Assembly (NCBI GenBank): GCA_021848365.1
Contig: JAJZUS010000003.1
Location: 1 to 64,000, forward strand
DNA from: Actinomycetes bacterium
Lineage (GTDB): Bacteria > Actinomycetota > Acidimicrobiia > Acidimicrobiales > RAAP-2
Direction: 5' to 3'
DNA length: 64,000 nucleotides
In this document: piece by piece, positions 23,337-30,108 of the stretch
Numbering within the stretch: position 1 is the first letter of the stretch
How the letters are laid out: each line of letters begins with the position of its first letter
Position numbers and translations under genes: made by a program
Notes under the pieces: generated by a model
Told to the model about the DNA's origin: nothing
The model's input: only the letters and a program-made list of their open reading frames with translations
Databases searched by the model: none

Positions 23337-23627
23337 GTGAACCATCCGGACGCCACGAGTGGTGGCCGGAGCGCTCTGAACCGCACGGCGAGGGACCTCG
23401 CCCGCTACCTCATCCGTCACCCGGCCGATCTCGCCCCCGTCCTTAGCGCCGCCTGGCGACTCCGTCGTCGCGGTTGGTGGCGACGTTTTCCCTACTTGCC
23501 GGTTCCGGATCCTCGCTACTGGGAGTTCCGAGTCGCCACGGCCACGGGTGAACGTGATGGGGTGCTCGATCCCCAAGAGGTCGTCGCCGCGGCGAGGTGG
23601 TCACGAGTGCAGTCGCGCGGGCGGTAG
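23337..23627 (+). CDS. conserved hypothetical protein (Arg/Trp-rich)
   Basis: A 96-residue protein with no recognised domain. It has a basic helix-forming start (NRTARDLARYLIRHP), a cluster RRRGWWRRFPYLPVPDPRYWEFR, and ends in Arg-rich tail. The WWRRFP-LPVPDPRYW pattern looks like a conserved actinobacterial hypothetical family, but I cannot name it. It sits 16 bases after the DUF3040 gene and 10 before the HNH gene, in the same direction. Start GTG 23337; codon usage matches its neighbours, which supports a real gene. Confidence 0.65.
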   Translation: MNHPDATSGGRSALNRTARDLARYLIRHPADLAPVLSAAWRLRRRGWWRRFPYLPVPDPRYWEFRVATATGERDGVLDPQEVVAAARWSRVQSRGR

Positions 23628-23630
23628 GTT
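23625..23630 (+). promoter_or_regulatory. -10 box for HNH gene
   Basis: TAGGTT lies 7 nt before ATG 23638 inside the end of the preceding gene; no Shine-Dalgarno is visible. Confidence 0.45.
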
Positions 23631-23637
23631 TCATCTC

Positions 23638-24144
23638 ATGGGCCGCGTGCTGCTGCTCAACGCCACGTTTGAGCCACTCCAGTTGGTCAGCGAGCGGCGA
23701 GCCGTCGTGCTCATGCTCGGTGGTCGTGCCGAGCCGGTGGCCGTCGAGGACGACGCTCCCGTGTTCCACTCGGCCTCGTTGTCGGTGCCGGTCCCTACGA
23801 TCGTGCGTCTCCACGACGTCGTCCGCCTGCCGATCAAGGTTCGCGTCCCACCGCTGACCCGCCGGGCGCTACTCGTTCGTGACGGGTATCGCTGCGCGTA
23901 CTGCCTCGAGCACGCCGACACCATCGACCACGTTGTCCCCCGGAGCCGTGGAGGACAGCACGTCTGGACGAACGTGGTGGCGGCGTGCCGGCGCCACAAC
24001 ATGCAAAAGGGCGACCGTCTTCTCGAAGAGATTGGGTGGCGACTCCACTTCGAGCCCAAAGTGCCCGAGGGGCCGTGGTGGCGGTGGCGTTACGTCCCTG
24101 ATCCTCACCCGGAGTGGGCGACCTACCTGCAACGCGCTTCGTGA
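23638..24144 (+). CDS. HNH endonuclease-domain protein
   Basis: The 168-residue protein opens with VLLLNATFEPLQLVSERRAV and has a compact HNH nuclease fold at about residues 78-130: CAYCLEHADTIDHVVPRSRGGQ, then VVAACRRHNMQKGD. The two CxxC-type cysteine pairs and the DHVVPRS His are intact, so it is probably an active metal-dependent nuclease. This stand-alone type is widespread in actinobacteria and chloroflexi near housekeeping genes, and its role is not established. ATG 23638 is 7 nt after TAGGTT. The stop overlaps the next start by 4 nt. Confidence 0.88.
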   Translation: MGRVLLLNATFEPLQLVSERRAVVLMLGGRAEPVAVEDDAPVFHSASLSVPVPTIVRLHDVVRLPIKVRVPPLTRRALLVRDGYRCAYCLEHADTIDHVVPRSRGGQHVWTNVVAACRRHNMQKGDRLLEEIGWRLHFEPKVPEGPWWRWRYVPDPHPEWATYLQRAS

Positions 24145-24803
24145 TCGACGACGAGCTCGAGGAGCTCTACGACTACGACGAGCTGCGACGGATCGACGAG
24201 CCGACGATGTTCGAGGTGAGTCCGACCCGGACCACCCTCGTCCTGGGCAGCGCCCAGCCGTCCGGCGTCCTAAGTCCGGACGCCGCCTCGCGCTGGGCGA
24301 TTCGTCGTCGTCGCGGGGGTGGAGGCGTGGTCGCACTGCACCCTGACGACCTCTGGGTCGACTGGTGGATTCCCGTTCACGACCCGCGACACTACGATGA
24401 CGTCCGCGCCGCCGCCGATATCGTCGGACGATGGTGGCAGGTCGCGCTCCGCGGTGAGGGGGCGATCGATCCCTCGGTGCACGTGGGGGCCGTCATCGAT
24501 GACCCCCGATTCCGCGTGGCCTGCTTCACGGGTGCGGGTCCGGGCGAGGTCTTCGTGGGCGGTCGCAAGGTCGTGGGCGTGACCCAGTGGCGAGTCCGCG
24601 AAGGCACCTTCCTCTCGACCGTGTGCCCGGTGCAGGACTCTCGCGACATCGTCGCGGCCCTCGCGGCGCCACCCGATGGGCTCGACCACGCTCTCGACCA
24701 CGCGACCCTCGCCGACCTCGGTGTCGATCCCGGAGCCCTCCTCGCTCGTCTCGAGGTCGAGTCGGGTCCCTGGCGACACCGTCGCCTCATCCTCGACGCC
24801 TGA
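24141..24803 (+). CDS. lipoate-protein ligase A-like protein (BPL/LplA/LipB fold)
   Basis: The 220-residue protein resembles lipoate-protein ligases. TTLVLGSAQPS corresponds to the LGxxQ strand, RRRGGGGVVALHPDDLWVDWWIP to the RRxGGGxVxHxPG lipoyl-AMP segment (here with His retained) and GGRKVVGVTQWR to the catalytic-lysine loop. It may transfer lipoate or octanoate, but the substrate could also be another acyl group. The stop falls inside a 44-bp tandem duplication (24785-24872), so the terminal codons RLILDA are repeated downstream. It overlaps the HNH stop by 4 nt. Confidence 0.75.
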   Translation: MIDDELEELYDYDELRRIDEPTMFEVSPTRTTLVLGSAQPSGVLSPDAASRWAIRRRRGGGGVVALHPDDLWVDWWIPVHDPRHYDDVRAAADIVGRWWQVALRGEGAIDPSVHVGAVIDDPRFRVACFTGAGPGEVFVGGRKVVGVTQWRVREGTFLSTVCPVQDSRDIVAALAAPPDGLDHALDHATLADLGVDPGALLARLEVESGPWRHRRLILDA

Positions 24804-24872
24804 CCGGTCCGTCGCGCCGCCCGCGACCCCTCATCCTCGACGCCTGACCAGTCCGTCGCGCCGCCCGCGACC
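24785..24872 (+). repeat. two-copy 44-bp tandem duplication over the end of the lplA-like gene
   Basis: The unit starting CCTCATCCTCGACGCCTGAC occurs at 24785-24828 and again at 24829-24872 with a single G/A difference seen. Copy 1 holds the last codons and TGA stop of the lipoate-ligase-like gene; copy 2 repeats them in non-coding DNA. A third, degraded start (CCTCCTCC) follows. This looks like recent slippage. Confidence 0.9.
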
Positions 24873-24941
24873 CCTCCTCCACGGCGCGCCGAGTGGGGCG
24901 CCGCAACCCCCGCCGAACCTCTTTCGGGCGCGAACGTCCTA

Positions 24942-24979
24942 CGAAGTGGTGTACTGTGTCACGAAGTGGGGCGAAGTGG
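24942..24979 (+). promoter_or_regulatory. MraZ-box array and dcw promoter
   Basis: Three exact copies of CGAAGTGG lie at 24942-24949, 24962-24969 and 24972-24979, spaced 20 and 10 bp, i.e. on one face of the helix. A TACTGT -10-like element (24952-24957) lies between the first and second copies. MraZ of other bacteria binds arrays of short GTG-containing repeats (AAAGTG-type in mollicutes, TGGG-type in E. coli) in the mraZ promoter. The array therefore looks like the autoregulatory operator of the cluster. Confidence 0.75.
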
Positions 24980-25000
24980 TGCTAAAGGGAGGGCAAGGCG

Positions 25001-25423
25001 GTGAGTGGGTTCGTCGGCCAGTTCCAGCACACGCTGGACGCGAAGGGACGCCTGATCCTGCCCGCCCGATTTCGCCCGGAATTCGAGCGCGGTGGGCACC
25101 TGAGTCCCCACAGCGAGGGCTGCGTCGCCCTGTGGACTCCGGCGGAGTTCACGCGCGAGAGTGAGGTGCGGCTGTCTCAGAGTCGCAGCGGCGACCCCGA
25201 GCAGCGCCGTCTGGCCCGCTTCTGGGCCGCCAACTCGTCCGACGTCGAGTTCGACCGCCAGGGCCGCTTCGCCCTGCCCGGGGCCATCCGGGAGTTCGGG
25301 GGCCTCGTGGGCGACGTGCTGGTCGTGGGAGCGCTGGACCACCTGGAGCTCTGGAGTCCGGAGGCCTATCGCGAGAAGGTGGCCCCCGCCGAGAGCACGT
25401 TCCGCGACGGAGTCCTCTCGTGA
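25001..25423 (+). CDS. mraZ: transcriptional regulator MraZ
   Basis: MraZ is a ring-forming AbrB-fold regulator that represses its own dcw operon in species studied. The 140-residue protein has two SpoVT/AbrB-like halves, each with the DxKGR-type motif: HTLDAKGRLILPARFRPEF and VEFDRQGRFALPGAIREF. GTG 25001 follows GGGAGGG by about 9 nt and gives the expected MxxFxGxFxHxLDxKGR start. The three CGAAGTGG boxes just upstream are its likely target. The stop overlaps the rsmH start (GTGA). Confidence 0.95.
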   Translation: MSGFVGQFQHTLDAKGRLILPARFRPEFERGGHLSPHSEGCVALWTPAEFTRESEVRLSQSRSGDPEQRRLARFWAANSSDVEFDRQGRFALPGAIREFGGLVGDVLVVGALDHLELWSPEAYREKVAPAESTFRDGVLS

Positions 25424-26424
25424 TCGAGATCGATGGTCGTCCCCGTCGTCGCCCGCCACATCGTGGCCGCAGCGAGCGACCGACCACCGCCGAGGGCTAT
25501 CACGCCCCGGTCATGGTCGACGAGGTCCTCGCTCTCTTGGAGAGTGAGGGAACCGGCGTGATGATCGACGCGACCCTCGGAGGCGGAGGTCACGCGGCGG
25601 CGATCCTCCACGCCCGCCCTGACCTGCGGATTCTCGGAGTGGATCGTGATCCCGTGGCCCGTGCCGCGGCCCTCTCGCGACTCGCGCCCTTCGGCGATCG
25701 GGTTCGCGTCGTGGCCGGAACCTTCGCGGATGCGTCGGACATCGTGGCGGCGGAGGGTGACTTCATCGGGTCCGATCCGATCGTCGCCATCCTCTACGAC
25801 CTCGGCGTCTCGTCGCGACAACTCGACGATCCCGAACGGGGCTTCTCCTACCGTTTCGACGCCCCTCTCGACATGCGCATGGATCCCACGCAAGGACCGA
25901 CCGCCGCCGACGTCCTCGCGGGGCTCAGTCGAGCCGAGTTGATCGAGGTCCTACGCGAGAACGGTGAGACGCGATTCGCCGGGGCCATCGCGGACCGCGT
26001 GATCGCCGAGCACCCCGCCACCACGTTCGAGCTCGTTCGCGCGGTCGAGGCGGCGGTCCCGCCGGCCGCACGACGACGGGGCAACGCGGCCTCGCGGGTC
26101 TTCCAGGCTCTGCGGATCGAGGTGAATCGCGAAGTCGACCAGTTGCGCGACGGTCTCGAAGCCGGCTGGGACGTGCTGTCGGGCGGTGGCGTCATGATCG
26201 TGATCTCGTACCACTCGGGTGAGGACCGGATGGTGAAGGCCTTCTTCCACGAGGCGGCCACCGGAGGATGCCACTGCCCGCCGGAGATCGGGTGCGTCTG
26301 CGGAGCCGTGCCGACGGCCCGGGTGCCTCGAGCGAGTGCGCGGCTGGCGAGCGCTGACGAGGTGGCCCACAACCCCCGCGCCCACTCGGCGCGCCTGCGG
26401 AGTGCGTGGAAGGTGGCGGCGTGA
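25420..26424 (+). CDS. rsmH: 16S rRNA (cytosine(1402)-N4)-methyltransferase RsmH
   Basis: RsmH (MraW) methylates N4 of C1402 in 16S rRNA, which tunes the P-site. The 334-residue enzyme has the start GYHAPVMVDEVLALL, the SAM-binding MIDATLGGGGHAAAIL, catalytic-region DLGVSSRQLDDPERGFSYRFDAPLDMRMD and SYHSGEDRMVK. It carries an Arg/Pro-rich N-terminal extension of about 25 residues and an extra Cys cluster, GGCHCPPEIGCVCG, in the usual C-terminal position. It is coupled by 4-nt overlaps to mraZ and ftsL. Confidence 0.96.
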   Translation: MIEIDGRPRRRPPHRGRSERPTTAEGYHAPVMVDEVLALLESEGTGVMIDATLGGGGHAAAILHARPDLRILGVDRDPVARAAALSRLAPFGDRVRVVAGTFADASDIVAAEGDFIGSDPIVAILYDLGVSSRQLDDPERGFSYRFDAPLDMRMDPTQGPTAADVLAGLSRAELIEVLRENGETRFAGAIADRVIAEHPATTFELVRAVEAAVPPAARRRGNAASRVFQALRIEVNREVDQLRDGLEAGWDVLSGGGVMIVISYHSGEDRMVKAFFHEAATGGCHCPPEIGCVCGAVPTARVPRASARLASADEVAHNPRAHSARLRSAWKVAA

Positions 26425-26885
26425 GCGTCATCACCCTCCCCCGACGTCCTCACGTCGCCCCTCGGGAGGTCACTCGTCCCGCGCCGGGCACGGTCTCACC
26501 ACGGCCCGGGGCGCACCGCGCCGGTCAGCCCCGCCGGAACGCCCTTCGCTCGCTGTGGCGGGGTGCGACACCGACGCGCCGGGCGGTCATCATCGTCGGC
26601 CTGGCGGTCGCGGCGTCGCTGGTGGGCAGCATGGAGGTCGCGAGTCGCCAAGTCGAGCTGCACGCGTTGCAGAATGAGGTCTTGCAGGTCCAGTCAAGCT
26701 ACGCCGAGCAAGTGGGTTCTCTGACCAACGTTGCCGCTCCAGGCTCCGTTGCGTCGCACGCCGGAGCCCTTCACCTGGTCGACCCCACCGTGATCATCCA
26801 GGTGCCCTCCGTCGCACTCAACAAGCCACTTCCCGTGCCGCAGTTCGTGGGCTATGCCCCGGTCACGCCACGGACGTCCCGGTGA
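26421..26885 (+). CDS. ftsL: FtsL-like division protein
   Basis: FtsL bridges FtsB and FtsQ/FtsW/FtsI at the septum. The 154-residue product has the expected layout for a divergent family: a basic, Pro/Arg-rich cytoplasmic tail (about 55 residues), one membrane segment (AVIIVGLAVAASLVGSM), a short helix VASRQVELHALQNEVLQVQSSY and an end with ALHLVDPTVIIQVPSV. Assignment rests on position between rsmH and ftsI and on topology rather than on strong sequence signatures. 4-nt overlaps exist on both sides. Confidence 0.82.
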   Translation: MSVITLPRRPHVAPREVTRPAPGTVSPRPGAHRAGQPRRNALRSLWRGATPTRRAVIIVGLAVAASLVGSMEVASRQVELHALQNEVLQVQSSYAEQVGSLTNVAAPGSVASHAGALHLVDPTVIIQVPSVALNKPLPVPQFVGYAPVTPRTSR

Positions 26886-28705
26886 GCCCCACCCTGGCGC
26901 CATCCACCCGAACGGTTCGCCGACCCGAGCGACCGCGACGGACGTTGCCCCGGCGACTGCGCTTACTACGAGGGCTCTTCGCCCTCGCGCTGCTCGGGCT
27001 CGGCCTGCGGCTCGTGGCGCTTCAGGTGCTGGATCACGCGTACTACGCGAAACTCTCCGTGGCGCAGGTGCGGGTCGACCTCACGACCCAGGCGTTGCGG
27101 GCGGGGATCTACGACCGCAACGGCCAGATCATCGCCGTGTCACGTCCGACCGCCGTCGTCATCGCCGACGACTTCCAGATCGCCCACCCGGCGACCGAGG
27201 CCGCGGCCCTCTCGCCACTCGTCAAGGTTCCCGTCCCGAAGTTGACGTCGCTGCTCAGTCAGCGCAACGGGTACGTGATCCTCACGAACACGCTGGACGT
27301 CACGTCCGGTCGGACGATCACGGCGATGAACTTCCCCGGCATCGTGGTCCAGAACTCTTCGGTGCGCGACTACCCGAACGGTCCCGTGGCGACGTCCCTC
27401 GTGGGGGGGGTTAATTCGTCCGGCACGGGCTCGGCGGGACTCGAGTACCAGTACCAGAAGTTGCTGGCCGGGCAGTCCGGGATCACCCGGGCCTTCGTGT
27501 CGGCGAGTGGGGTCAACCTCCCCGCCTCGTACAGCACGGTCATTCGTAAGGCGACCCCGGGCGTGGGGCTCGAGCTGACCATCGACAACTCGCTCCAGTT
27601 CGTGACCGAGCGCGCCCTCGCCCGTGACCTGGCGTCAACCGACGCGGTGGCGGGAACGGCCATCGTGATGGACGTCCACACCGGCGAGATCCTCGCGAAC
27701 GCCTCGCTCGTGAACACCAAGGCGAAGGCCGGCATCCTCGGTCCCATCCCGTCGTGGGGCGTCAACGTCGGCGTCCCGGGCATCCAGCAGACGATCAACG
27801 ATCTCGCATTCAGCTACGCGTACGAGCCCGGCTCGGTCTTCAAGGCCGTGACGTTCTCCGCGGCACTTCAGGACGGGATCATCACCCCGCACACCGTGCT
27901 CAACGTCCCCCCGAGCGTCGTCGTGGGGACGCGCGTCTTCCACGACGCGGAACCCCACGGCTTCGAGCACCTGACGGCCACCCAGGTCCTCGCCCTGTCG
28001 TCGAACATCGGAACCTACGAGATCACGAACCGCCTCGGCGAGTCGGGACTCCTGAGCCAAGTCGAGCGCCTCGGCTTCGGTCAGTTGACGACCTTGCAGT
28101 ATCCCGGTGAGACGGCGGGGCTACTGGTCAACGCGAACAGTTGGTACCCGTCCGACATGGCGGCCATGCCCATCGGGCAGGTTGACGCCGTTCCGCCCAT
28201 CCAAGTCCTCGACGCCTACAACGCCATCGCCAACGGGGGCGTCTTCGTGGAGCCCCAGCTGGTGCGCGGCTACGTGAGCTCCACGGGCGCCGTGACGGCG
28301 GCGCCCGCCGGCGCGACCCGACGGGTGATGAGCGCGACGACCGCCGCGACGCTCACCTCGATGCTCCAGCAGGTGGTGCTTGCGGGAACGGGCGTCAACG
28401 CGATCATTCCGGGCTATCCGGTGGCGGGTAAGACCGGCACCGCGACGATCCCGTACCCGGGCCGAGCCCAGTTGACCTCCTGGTACAACGCGACCTTCGT
28501 GGGCTTCGCGCCGGCCGAGCGGCCGACGTTCTCCATGATCGTGGTCGTCGAGCGACCGCTCACGACGATCTACGGTGGGACGGCCGCCGCCCCGGTCTTC
28601 CAGCAAGTGATGTCCTACGCCCTCCACCATTACGGGATCCCCTCCACCGGAATCACCGTCAAGCCGCTCACTGGTAGCGCCAGCGTTGCCTCGGACGTGA
28701 CCTGA
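26882..28705 (+). CDS. ftsI: division-specific transpeptidase, penicillin-binding protein FtsI/PBP3
   Basis: FtsI crosslinks septal peptidoglycan together with FtsW. The 607-residue class B PBP has a basic cytoplasmic N-terminus, one membrane anchor (about residues 29-50), the pedestal domain with AGIYDRNGQIIAVSRP, and a transpeptidase domain with Ser318 in EPGSVFK (SxxK), Ser373-Ser-Asn375 (SxN) and KTG at 517-519. The tail after KTG is ordinary, with no PASTA domains. It starts at GTG 26882, overlapping ftsL, and its stop overlaps murE by one base. Confidence 0.95.
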   Translation: MSPTLAPSTRTVRRPERPRRTLPRRLRLLRGLFALALLGLGLRLVALQVLDHAYYAKLSVAQVRVDLTTQALRAGIYDRNGQIIAVSRPTAVVIADDFQIAHPATEAAALSPLVKVPVPKLTSLLSQRNGYVILTNTLDVTSGRTITAMNFPGIVVQNSSVRDYPNGPVATSLVGGVNSSGTGSAGLEYQYQKLLAGQSGITRAFVSASGVNLPASYSTVIRKATPGVGLELTIDNSLQFVTERALARDLASTDAVAGTAIVMDVHTGEILANASLVNTKAKAGILGPIPSWGVNVGVPGIQQTINDLAFSYAYEPGSVFKAVTFSAALQDGIITPHTVLNVPPSVVVGTRVFHDAEPHGFEHLTATQVLALSSNIGTYEITNRLGESGLLSQVERLGFGQLTTLQYPGETAGLLVNANSWYPSDMAAMPIGQVDAVPPIQVLDAYNAIANGGVFVEPQLVRGYVSSTGAVTAAPAGATRRVMSATTAATLTSMLQQVVLAGTGVNAIIPGYPVAGKTGTATIPYPGRAQLTSWYNATFVGFAPAERPTFSMIVVVERPLTTIYGGTAAAPVFQQVMSYALHHYGIPSTGITVKPLTGSASVASDVT

Positions 28706-30108
28706 TGCAGCTCGGTGACCTGTTCGACGACGCACGGCTCGATCTCGCGACGGCCACCGTCGAGATCCAGAACGTCGAGAACGACTCACGGCGCTGCAGC
28801 CCCGGCTCCCTCTTTCTCGCCATGCCGGGCACGCAGGACAGCGGCGAGCGCTACGTCGACGACGCCATCGACCGCGGAGCGGTCGCCGTGATGGCGACCT
28901 CCGTCGTCACCGACCGGGTGCCCGTCGTCGTCGTGCCGACGAGCCAGGTCCGGGCCCTCGCGGCGGACGTGTCGTCGTGCATCGTGGGTCATCCGGAGCG
29001 CGAGCTCGAGCTCGTGGGCGTTACCGGGACCAACGGGAAGACCACGGTCACCACGCTCGTGGGAGAGATGGCCCAGATCCTCGGCTGGAATGGGGCGAGC
29101 GTCGGAACCCTCACCAACCTGCGCACCACCCCGGCGCCTCCCGAGCTCTACCGAACGCTGCGACGCATCGTCGACGGGTTCACCGGGGCCAGACCACGGG
29201 CCGTCGTGGGACTCGAGGTCTCGAGCCACGCCCTCGACCAAGGTCGGGTCGATGGCCTGGTGTTCGAAGTGGCTGCCTTCACGAACCTCAGCCACGATCA
29301 CCTCGACTACCACGGAACGATGGAGGCCTACTTCGGTGCGAAGTCGGCGCTGTTCTCCGCCGACCGGGCGAAGCGCGCCGTCATCTGGGTCGACGACGCC
29401 TACGGCGCGCGACTCCGCGACGCCGTGCGCGTTCCCGCGGTCGCGGTGACCCGGGCGGACGCCCACGCCGTCACGTCGTCCATCCTCGGCACGTCGTTCT
29501 TCTGGCGCGGGCACCTGGTGCGTTCTCCGCTCGTGGGCGCCTACAACGTCGACAACGCCCTGGTGGCGATGACCGTCCTCTCGGTTCTCGGGGCGCCGGA
29601 CGAGGACGTGGCTGCCGCCCTGAGCACCGTTCACGGCGTCCCGGGGCGATTCCAGGTCGTGCGCGACGCGGATCCGACGGTCATCGTCGACTACGCGCAC
29701 ACTCCAGCCGGACTGGAGCGTTTGCTGCGCGACGTTCGCGAACTCGCACCCGATCGACGCGTCACGGTCGTCTTCGGGTGCGGCGGCGACCGTGATCAGG
29801 CCAAGCGGCCCGTCATGGGATCGGTGGCCGAGGAGTGGTCCGATCGGGTGGTCGTGACCTCGGATAATCCGAGGTCCGAGTCGCCCGATGCCATTATTGA
29901 CGCGATCATGTCGGGGATGGCGGCGGCCCACGCAGTGCACCGTGACGTCGACCGCCGCTCCGCGATCGAGTGGGCGCTCACGACGGCGGCTCCCGGTGAC
30001 GTGGTGATCGTCGCGGGAAAGGGTCACGAGACCACTCAGACGACGGGTGATCGGGTCGAACCGTTCGACGATCGGGTCGTGGTGCGGGAGTGGAGCGAGC
30101 GATGCTGA
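28705..30108 (+). CDS. murE: UDP-N-acetylmuramoyl-tripeptide synthetase MurE (meso-DAP type)
   Basis: MurE adds the third residue to UDP-MurNAc-L-Ala-D-Glu. The 467-residue ligase has the P-loop TGTNGKTT (107-114), EVSSHALDQGR, the carbamylated lysine region YFGAKSALF and the DNPR motif at 387-390, which signals meso-diaminopimelate as substrate. GKGHETTQ closes the C-terminal domain. It overlaps ftsI by one base (TGATG) and mraY by 7. In most dcw clusters murF follows; here mraY does. Confidence 0.95.
   Translation: MQLGDLFDDARLDLATATVEIQNVENDSRRCSPGSLFLAMPGTQDSGERYVDDAIDRGAVAVMATSVVTDRVPVVVVPTSQVRALAADVSSCIVGHPERELELVGVTGTNGKTTVTTLVGEMAQILGWNGASVGTLTNLRTTPAPPELYRTLRRIVDGFTGARPRAVVGLEVSSHALDQGRVDGLVFEVAAFTNLSHDHLDYHGTMEAYFGAKSALFSADRAKRAVIWVDDAYGARLRDAVRVPAVAVTRADAHAVTSSILGTSFFWRGHLVRSPLVGAYNVDNALVAMTVLSVLGAPDEDVAAALSTVHGVPGRFQVVRDADPTVIVDYAHTPAGLERLLRDVRELAPDRRVTVVFGCGGDRDQAKRPVMGSVAEEWSDRVVVTSDNPRSESPDAIIDAIMSGMAAAHAVHRDVDRRSAIEWALTTAAPGDVVIVAGKGHETTQTTGDRVEPFDDRVVVREWSERC

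Follow-up and report, generated by a model that had tools for sequence, protein, structure and literature searches.

A helically phased ladder of GTGG boxes over the mraZ promoter, very probably the MraZ operator of an actinobacterial dcw cluster

The mraZ locus and the array upstream of it

The window, by which we mean the whole 64,000-nucleotide stretch of DNA analysed here, carries a dcw cluster with mraZ as its first gene, followed on the same strand by mraW, a penicillin-binding protein gene and murE. mraZ (25001-25423, + strand) is intact, with a GTG start and a product of 140 amino acids. The protein matches PF02381 with 66 bits against a cut-off of 23 (E = 3e-18), in two stretches, so that two MraZ/AbrB-like repeats are contained in one short protein. 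The first repeat has the motif D-x-K-G-R and the second its counterpart D-x-x-G-R. In an alignment of 12 MraZ proteins D13, K15, G16, R17, D85 and R89 are invariant, and G88 is nearly so. The best of all family matches is the NCBI equivalog TIGR00242, with 91.6 bits against a curated cut-off of 98.35. The nearest named relatives, up to about 71-73% identical, include MraZ from metagenome assemblies of Acidimicrobiaceae, so that the class Acidimicrobiia of the phylum Actinomycetota is the most likely origin of the window. Residues 5-132 match the solved MraZ structure 1n0e (E = 1.7e-15), and from solved relatives matched by sequence we infer that a ring-shaped oligomer is formed here also. No paper describing the PDB entries 9qlg, 9qlr and 9sx6 was found in the open literature.

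The end of mraZ is overlapped by mraW/rsmH (25420-26424; PF01795, E = 5.6e-84; TIGR00006 above cut-off). An ORF of 159 amino acids (26406-26885) is assigned to the ftsL position by its place only, having no family match, and is followed by an ftsI-type penicillin-binding protein (26882-28705; PF00905, E = 5.1e-63) and murE (28705-30108; TIGR01085, E = 3.3e-133, above cut-off), all on the + strand. Upstream of mraZ the preceding ORF ends at 24803. A 44-bp direct duplication (93% identical, 24780-24867) spans the 3' end of that ORF with its stop codon and takes in the first part of the intergenic region. The ORF at 23548-24144, two genes before mraZ, encodes an HNH endonuclease. Similarity of the HNH stretch to models of IscB and Cas9d is weak (E about 1e-9) and far below their cut-offs, which makes an ordinary HNH protein likely.

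Between the ORF ending at 24803 and mraZ the octamer CGAAGTGG occurs three times on the + strand, at 24942-24949, 24962-24969 and 24972-24979, and mraZ starts 22 bp past the last of these. A preliminary description of this DNA had reported the three exact octamers, 20 and 10 bp apart, and we find them as it stated. It placed them on either side of the hexamer TACTGT, which is indeed at 24952-24957, but it missed that the 20-bp gap is not empty. The slot at 24952-24959 reads TACTGTGT, a degenerate box in which GTG is left of the GTGG core and the first six bases form the presumed -10 hexamer; an undegenerate box keeping TACTGT would read TACTGTGG. Since this slot is occupied, the array is a continuous 10-bp ladder. 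The predicted box 1 (24942-24949) lies in the -35/-10 spacer, box 2 (24952-24959) is fused with the -10 hexamer, box 3 (24962-24969) is at the expected transcription start and box 4 (24972-24979) is in the mraZ leader. Direct reading of the letters adds a predicted weak box 5 (24982-24989, CTAAAGGG) that runs into the ribosome-binding site. At the other end, slot 0 of the ladder (24932-24939, GAACGTCC) is degenerate here, and most close relatives carry a GTGG box in it. The intact array of the window is thus short, comprising three exact boxes, with the second box degenerate and slot 0 lost. What lies upstream of mraZ is a set of direct repeats with a GTG core, with a 10-bp helical period that runs through at least three boxes, three exact and one degenerate in phase.

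The octamer itself is over-represented, with eight copies in the 64 kb where 2.3 ± 1.5 are expected, and single copies are therefore unremarkable. It is the arrangement that is remarkable. No 8-mer of the window other than CGAAGTGG is present three times inside 40 bp with spacings that are multiples of 10, and no phased 8-mer triple arose in 100 simulated order-2 Markov windows.

Conservation of the boxes and their loss with mraZ

We compared about 200 mraZ upstream regions from Actinomycetota and Bacillota. The distances between GTGG cores show sharp peaks at 10, 20 and 30 bp, which are confined to the coding strand. These distances occur in 20, 18 and 18 of the 22 loci from the genus or family, in 25, 26 and 23 of 41 at class level, in 40, 35 and 10 of 48 at phylum level and in 32, 30 and 14 of 38 Bacillota loci (a group that is impure, one locus being labelled Muribaculum); relatedness among the loci, some of them near-duplicates, means that the counts are of non-independent events. 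At the same distances shuffled sequences gave 0.2-1.7, and the antisense strand and the gene body 0-3. Smaller peaks at 21, 31 and 41 bp suggest that one 11-bp step is tolerated in an array.

In an alignment of 47 family- and order-level regions information content is 1.2-2.0 bits in most core columns of boxes 2-4 and 0.2-0.7 in the majority of spacer columns; the register was set by the box match, and the flat spacer is the informative part. The exception in the spacer is a conserved G two bases past GTGG. The GTGG columns of slot 0 are conserved at 79-96% and the AAGTGG columns of box 3 at 85-100%, and the slots of boxes 1 and 4 are conserved in relatives as well. The box consensus is rAAGTGGnG in Actinomycetota and AAAGTGGnG in Bacillota. 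Of the octamer and spacing whose recurrence before the mraZ of relatives had been proposed as a check, the GTGG core and its 10-, 20- and 30-bp distances are conserved, but the leading C of CGAAGTGG is not.

The array is nearly unique to this position. The pattern AAGTGGN4AAGTGG, allowing at most one mismatch, occurs once in the 1.96-Mb genome of the window, at the array. A stricter three-box pattern is found at 11 places in 41 relatives; eight are in the genus of the window, each of them directly before mraZ, and the remaining three belong to a single motif that recurs in an order-level genome. RAAGTGGN3RAAGTGG was fetched at 30 sites in 81 genomes of the family, and at 25 of these mraZ follows closely on the same strand, in 24 cases at a distance of 66-172 bp and in the last at locus L220. 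Five lie away from mraZ, and the two of these that precede a tRNA gene look like chance. In loci L223 and L224, from two genomes of one genus, GAAGTGGTCGAAAGTGG stands shortly upstream of a tRNA-like sequence. Other phased GTGG triples in the genome of the window were rejected as targets, being inside or over coding ORFs and devoid of the AA flank. At about 1500-1535 of locus L215 (G000:C3:223843-223876, - strand) four GTGG cores without AA flanks follow each other every 10 bp across the beginning of a deaminase-like ORF, with a phosphoribosyltransferase-like ORF downstream of them; this is probably a coincidence of coding sequence. With the array unique in its genome and the sites in the family mostly at mraZ, nothing in the pattern searches points to a regulon outside the dcw cluster; degenerate sites would escape them.

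The boxes are retained only where MraZ is, and this points to MraZ as their reader. We compared 30 loci of one actinobacterial family (that of genome G177), in which some genomes without mraZ keep mraW. The array is present in all 16 loci with mraZ, with 3-7 phased GTGG pairs (mean 4.6), while the 14 loci without the gene average 0.14 pairs and none reaches three. Within this family, then, the array depends on mraZ in evolution. At many loci lacking mraZ the promoter persists and the boxes have decayed in place, as in the relic TTGACC...GTGGACTAAAGTGACGCGAAGCGG, where the slots read GTGG, GTGA and GCGG. Upstream of mraW in L254-L256, L262, L263, L274, L276, L282 and L284 we find such an operator relic, with the mraZ promoter and decayed boxes in phase. 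The RsmH tree has three state changes, of which at least two are forced by well-supported branches; the independent losses of mraZ are thus few (2-3) and rest on one gene tree. The genomes that have lost mraZ amount to a natural experiment that ties the boxes to the regulator without a gel, and this co-loss is the strongest evidence that MraZ would be the protein that reads the array.

The same comparisons bear on other readings of the repeats. They might be the operator of another cell-division regulator such as the response regulator MtrA; in the actinobacterium Dietzia MtrA binds the mraZ promoter, as tested by EMSA, and MtrAB represses mraZ (PMC9602371). We consider this improbable. Bacillota and E. 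coli have these boxes upstream of mraZ as well, and the boxes decay where mraZ is missing; moreover, similar GTG repeats are present in a B. cenocepacia fragment bound by MraZ (PMC7761207), and in mollicutes such repeats are defined as the MraZ site (PMC8475190). Still less probable is that no protein operator is involved and the G-rich repeats work as an element of the core promoter or leader, for example a G-quadruplex or a structured RNA. For S. aureus a G-quadruplex has been reported in G-rich sequence immediately past the mraZ promoter (PMC11796246), but a quadruplex would not need a strict 10-bp phase, an Rfam search gave no match, and the boxes begin before the -10, in DNA outside the transcript, and vanish with mraZ. 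The S. aureus quadruplex is located where Bacillota have their MraZ boxes, and because of this coincidence its region may be an MraZ operator; the term 'MraZ binding' is absent from PMC11796246. That the repeats are functionless short G-rich sequence is scarcely credible despite the over-representation of CGAAGTGG, given the lack of phased triples in the simulated windows, and the conservation of phase and strand in about 200 loci already refutes it.

Placement of the boxes on the promoter

The slot of the -10 hexamer is well conserved in the 47 aligned regions, with TA in 89% and the final T in 96%. Relatives at the level of the order have TTGAC, 17 nt and TANNNT. A consensus -35 or sigma-70 promoter pair was searched for in the window and not found, and a canonical -35 is present in only one of 29 members of its close clade. 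In that clade (L010-L030; 24921-24957 in the window) the TTGAC that order-level relatives have 17 nt before the -10 is lost, and several members have ATTTGGCG in its place, about 19-20 nt upstream. Transcription would start about 7 bp past the -10, which would put boxes 3 and 4 at and just after the start. The ladder extends from the -35/-10 spacer to about +25, with one box superimposed on the predicted -10, in a phase that is conserved.

Placement was counted only at loci with a recognisable -35/-10 pair beside the array. Counted from the first base of the -10, GTGG in Actinomycetota lies at +4, +14, -6 and -16, and the hexamer has a box fused to it (TANNGTGG) in 51 of the 69 promoters that could be recognised. 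The slot of box 2 reads TAATGTGG, TAAAGTGG and TAATGTGT in relatives, and its phase to the -10 is the same across Actinomycetota. The same script applied to Bacillota gave GTGG at +16, +26 and +36, and fusion in none of 17. The cores in the window, at -6, +4 (GTGT), +14 and +24, have the actinobacterial phase. The fused placement may be a lineage variant, the comparison being of Actinomycetota, Bacillota and one E. coli.

A more tentative proposal, which we think has something to commend it but would not favour, is that MraZ operator and core promoter are a single element in Actinomycetota, with one box built into the -10 (TANNGTGG) and others in the spacer, so that MraZ would compete with sigma for the -10; in the clade of the window, where the -35 is gone, the array might even take part in promoter recognition. 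The contrast in placement, on the -10 in Actinomycetota and after it in Bacillota, leads to a simple prediction for each phylum, concerning the strength with which MraZ can shut off the dcw cluster.

The array as MraZ operator, and its known counterparts

The array is conserved in relatives, nearly unique in the genome and lost along with mraZ. These findings all favour the preliminary proposal of a helically phased MraZ operator overlapping the mraZ -10, and taken with the phase of the boxes they indicate that the array is very probably just that. We are highly confident in the fuller form of this reading, in which direct rAAGTGGnG boxes, set 10 bp apart along the same face of the helix, serve as the MraZ operator of the dcw cluster, and the ring bound over the mraZ promoter blocks polymerase in negative autoregulation. 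By analogy with the MraZ family, neighbouring subunits of the ring would each read one box. The bound ring would cover the -10 and the start site so that RNA polymerase could not engage, and autorepression by this block is the most likely outcome. It would reach mraZ, rsmH, the gene at the ftsL position, ftsI and murE, and probably further genes. We infer the repressive sign from the overlap of the array with the -10, and put it no more strongly because in M. gallisepticum overexpression of MraZ is associated with increased FtsZ (PMC8475190). In E. coli MraZ represses its own cluster (PMC8475190, PMC7761207).

In the mollicutes M. gallisepticum and M. genitalium the MraZ operator consists of direct repeats AAAGTG[T/G] in the mraZ promoter, and on the M. 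genitalium chromosome the repeat array occurs only there (PMC8475190). The window shares with it direct A-rich GTG boxes in the mraZ promoter, but its boxes end in GTGG, prefer a G two bases on and include one fused to the -10.

The box had been described as closer to the mollicute core than to that of E. coli, and this distinction is not supported. The operator of E. coli K-12, read directly from the DNA, is CAGTGGGAAATTGTGGGGCAAAGTGGGAATAAGGGG, with GTGG at exact 10-bp steps. Its boxes upstream of mraZ in Pmra (AGTGGG, TGTGGG, AAGTGGG, AAGGGG) follow the same step as those of the window, and the final AAGGGG recalls weak box 5. They differ in placement, however, starting 13 bp past the first base of the presumed -10 (TAAACT), with GTGG at +13, +23 and +33, wholly downstream of the hexamer and with no box in the promoter spacer. 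In Burkholderia cenocepacia the EMSA fragment bound by MraZ contains four repeats of 7 nt that share a GTG core and are separated by 3 nt (PMC7761207). This is the same 10-bp unit as in the window, but it lies downstream of the -10 and overlaps the start site (PMC7761207). The 38 Bacillota arrays again have the AAAGTGGnG consensus and the 10-bp phase of the window, but with their boxes downstream of the -10.

A GTG motif common to B. subtilis, E. coli and mycoplasmas has already been noted (PMC7761207), and together with the phased GTGG of E. coli this leaves no call for a separate actinobacterial motif such as had been suggested. Bacillota have the rAAGTGGnG box too, and what is distinct in Actinomycetota is the placement. 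A single box could replace the seemingly different MraZ boxes: rAAGTGGnG repeats every 10 bp in both Actinomycetota and Bacillota, and in E. coli the GTGG core recurs in the same phase. This kind of switch is widespread and already known, and on its sequence the array in the window is a well-supported further instance of it.
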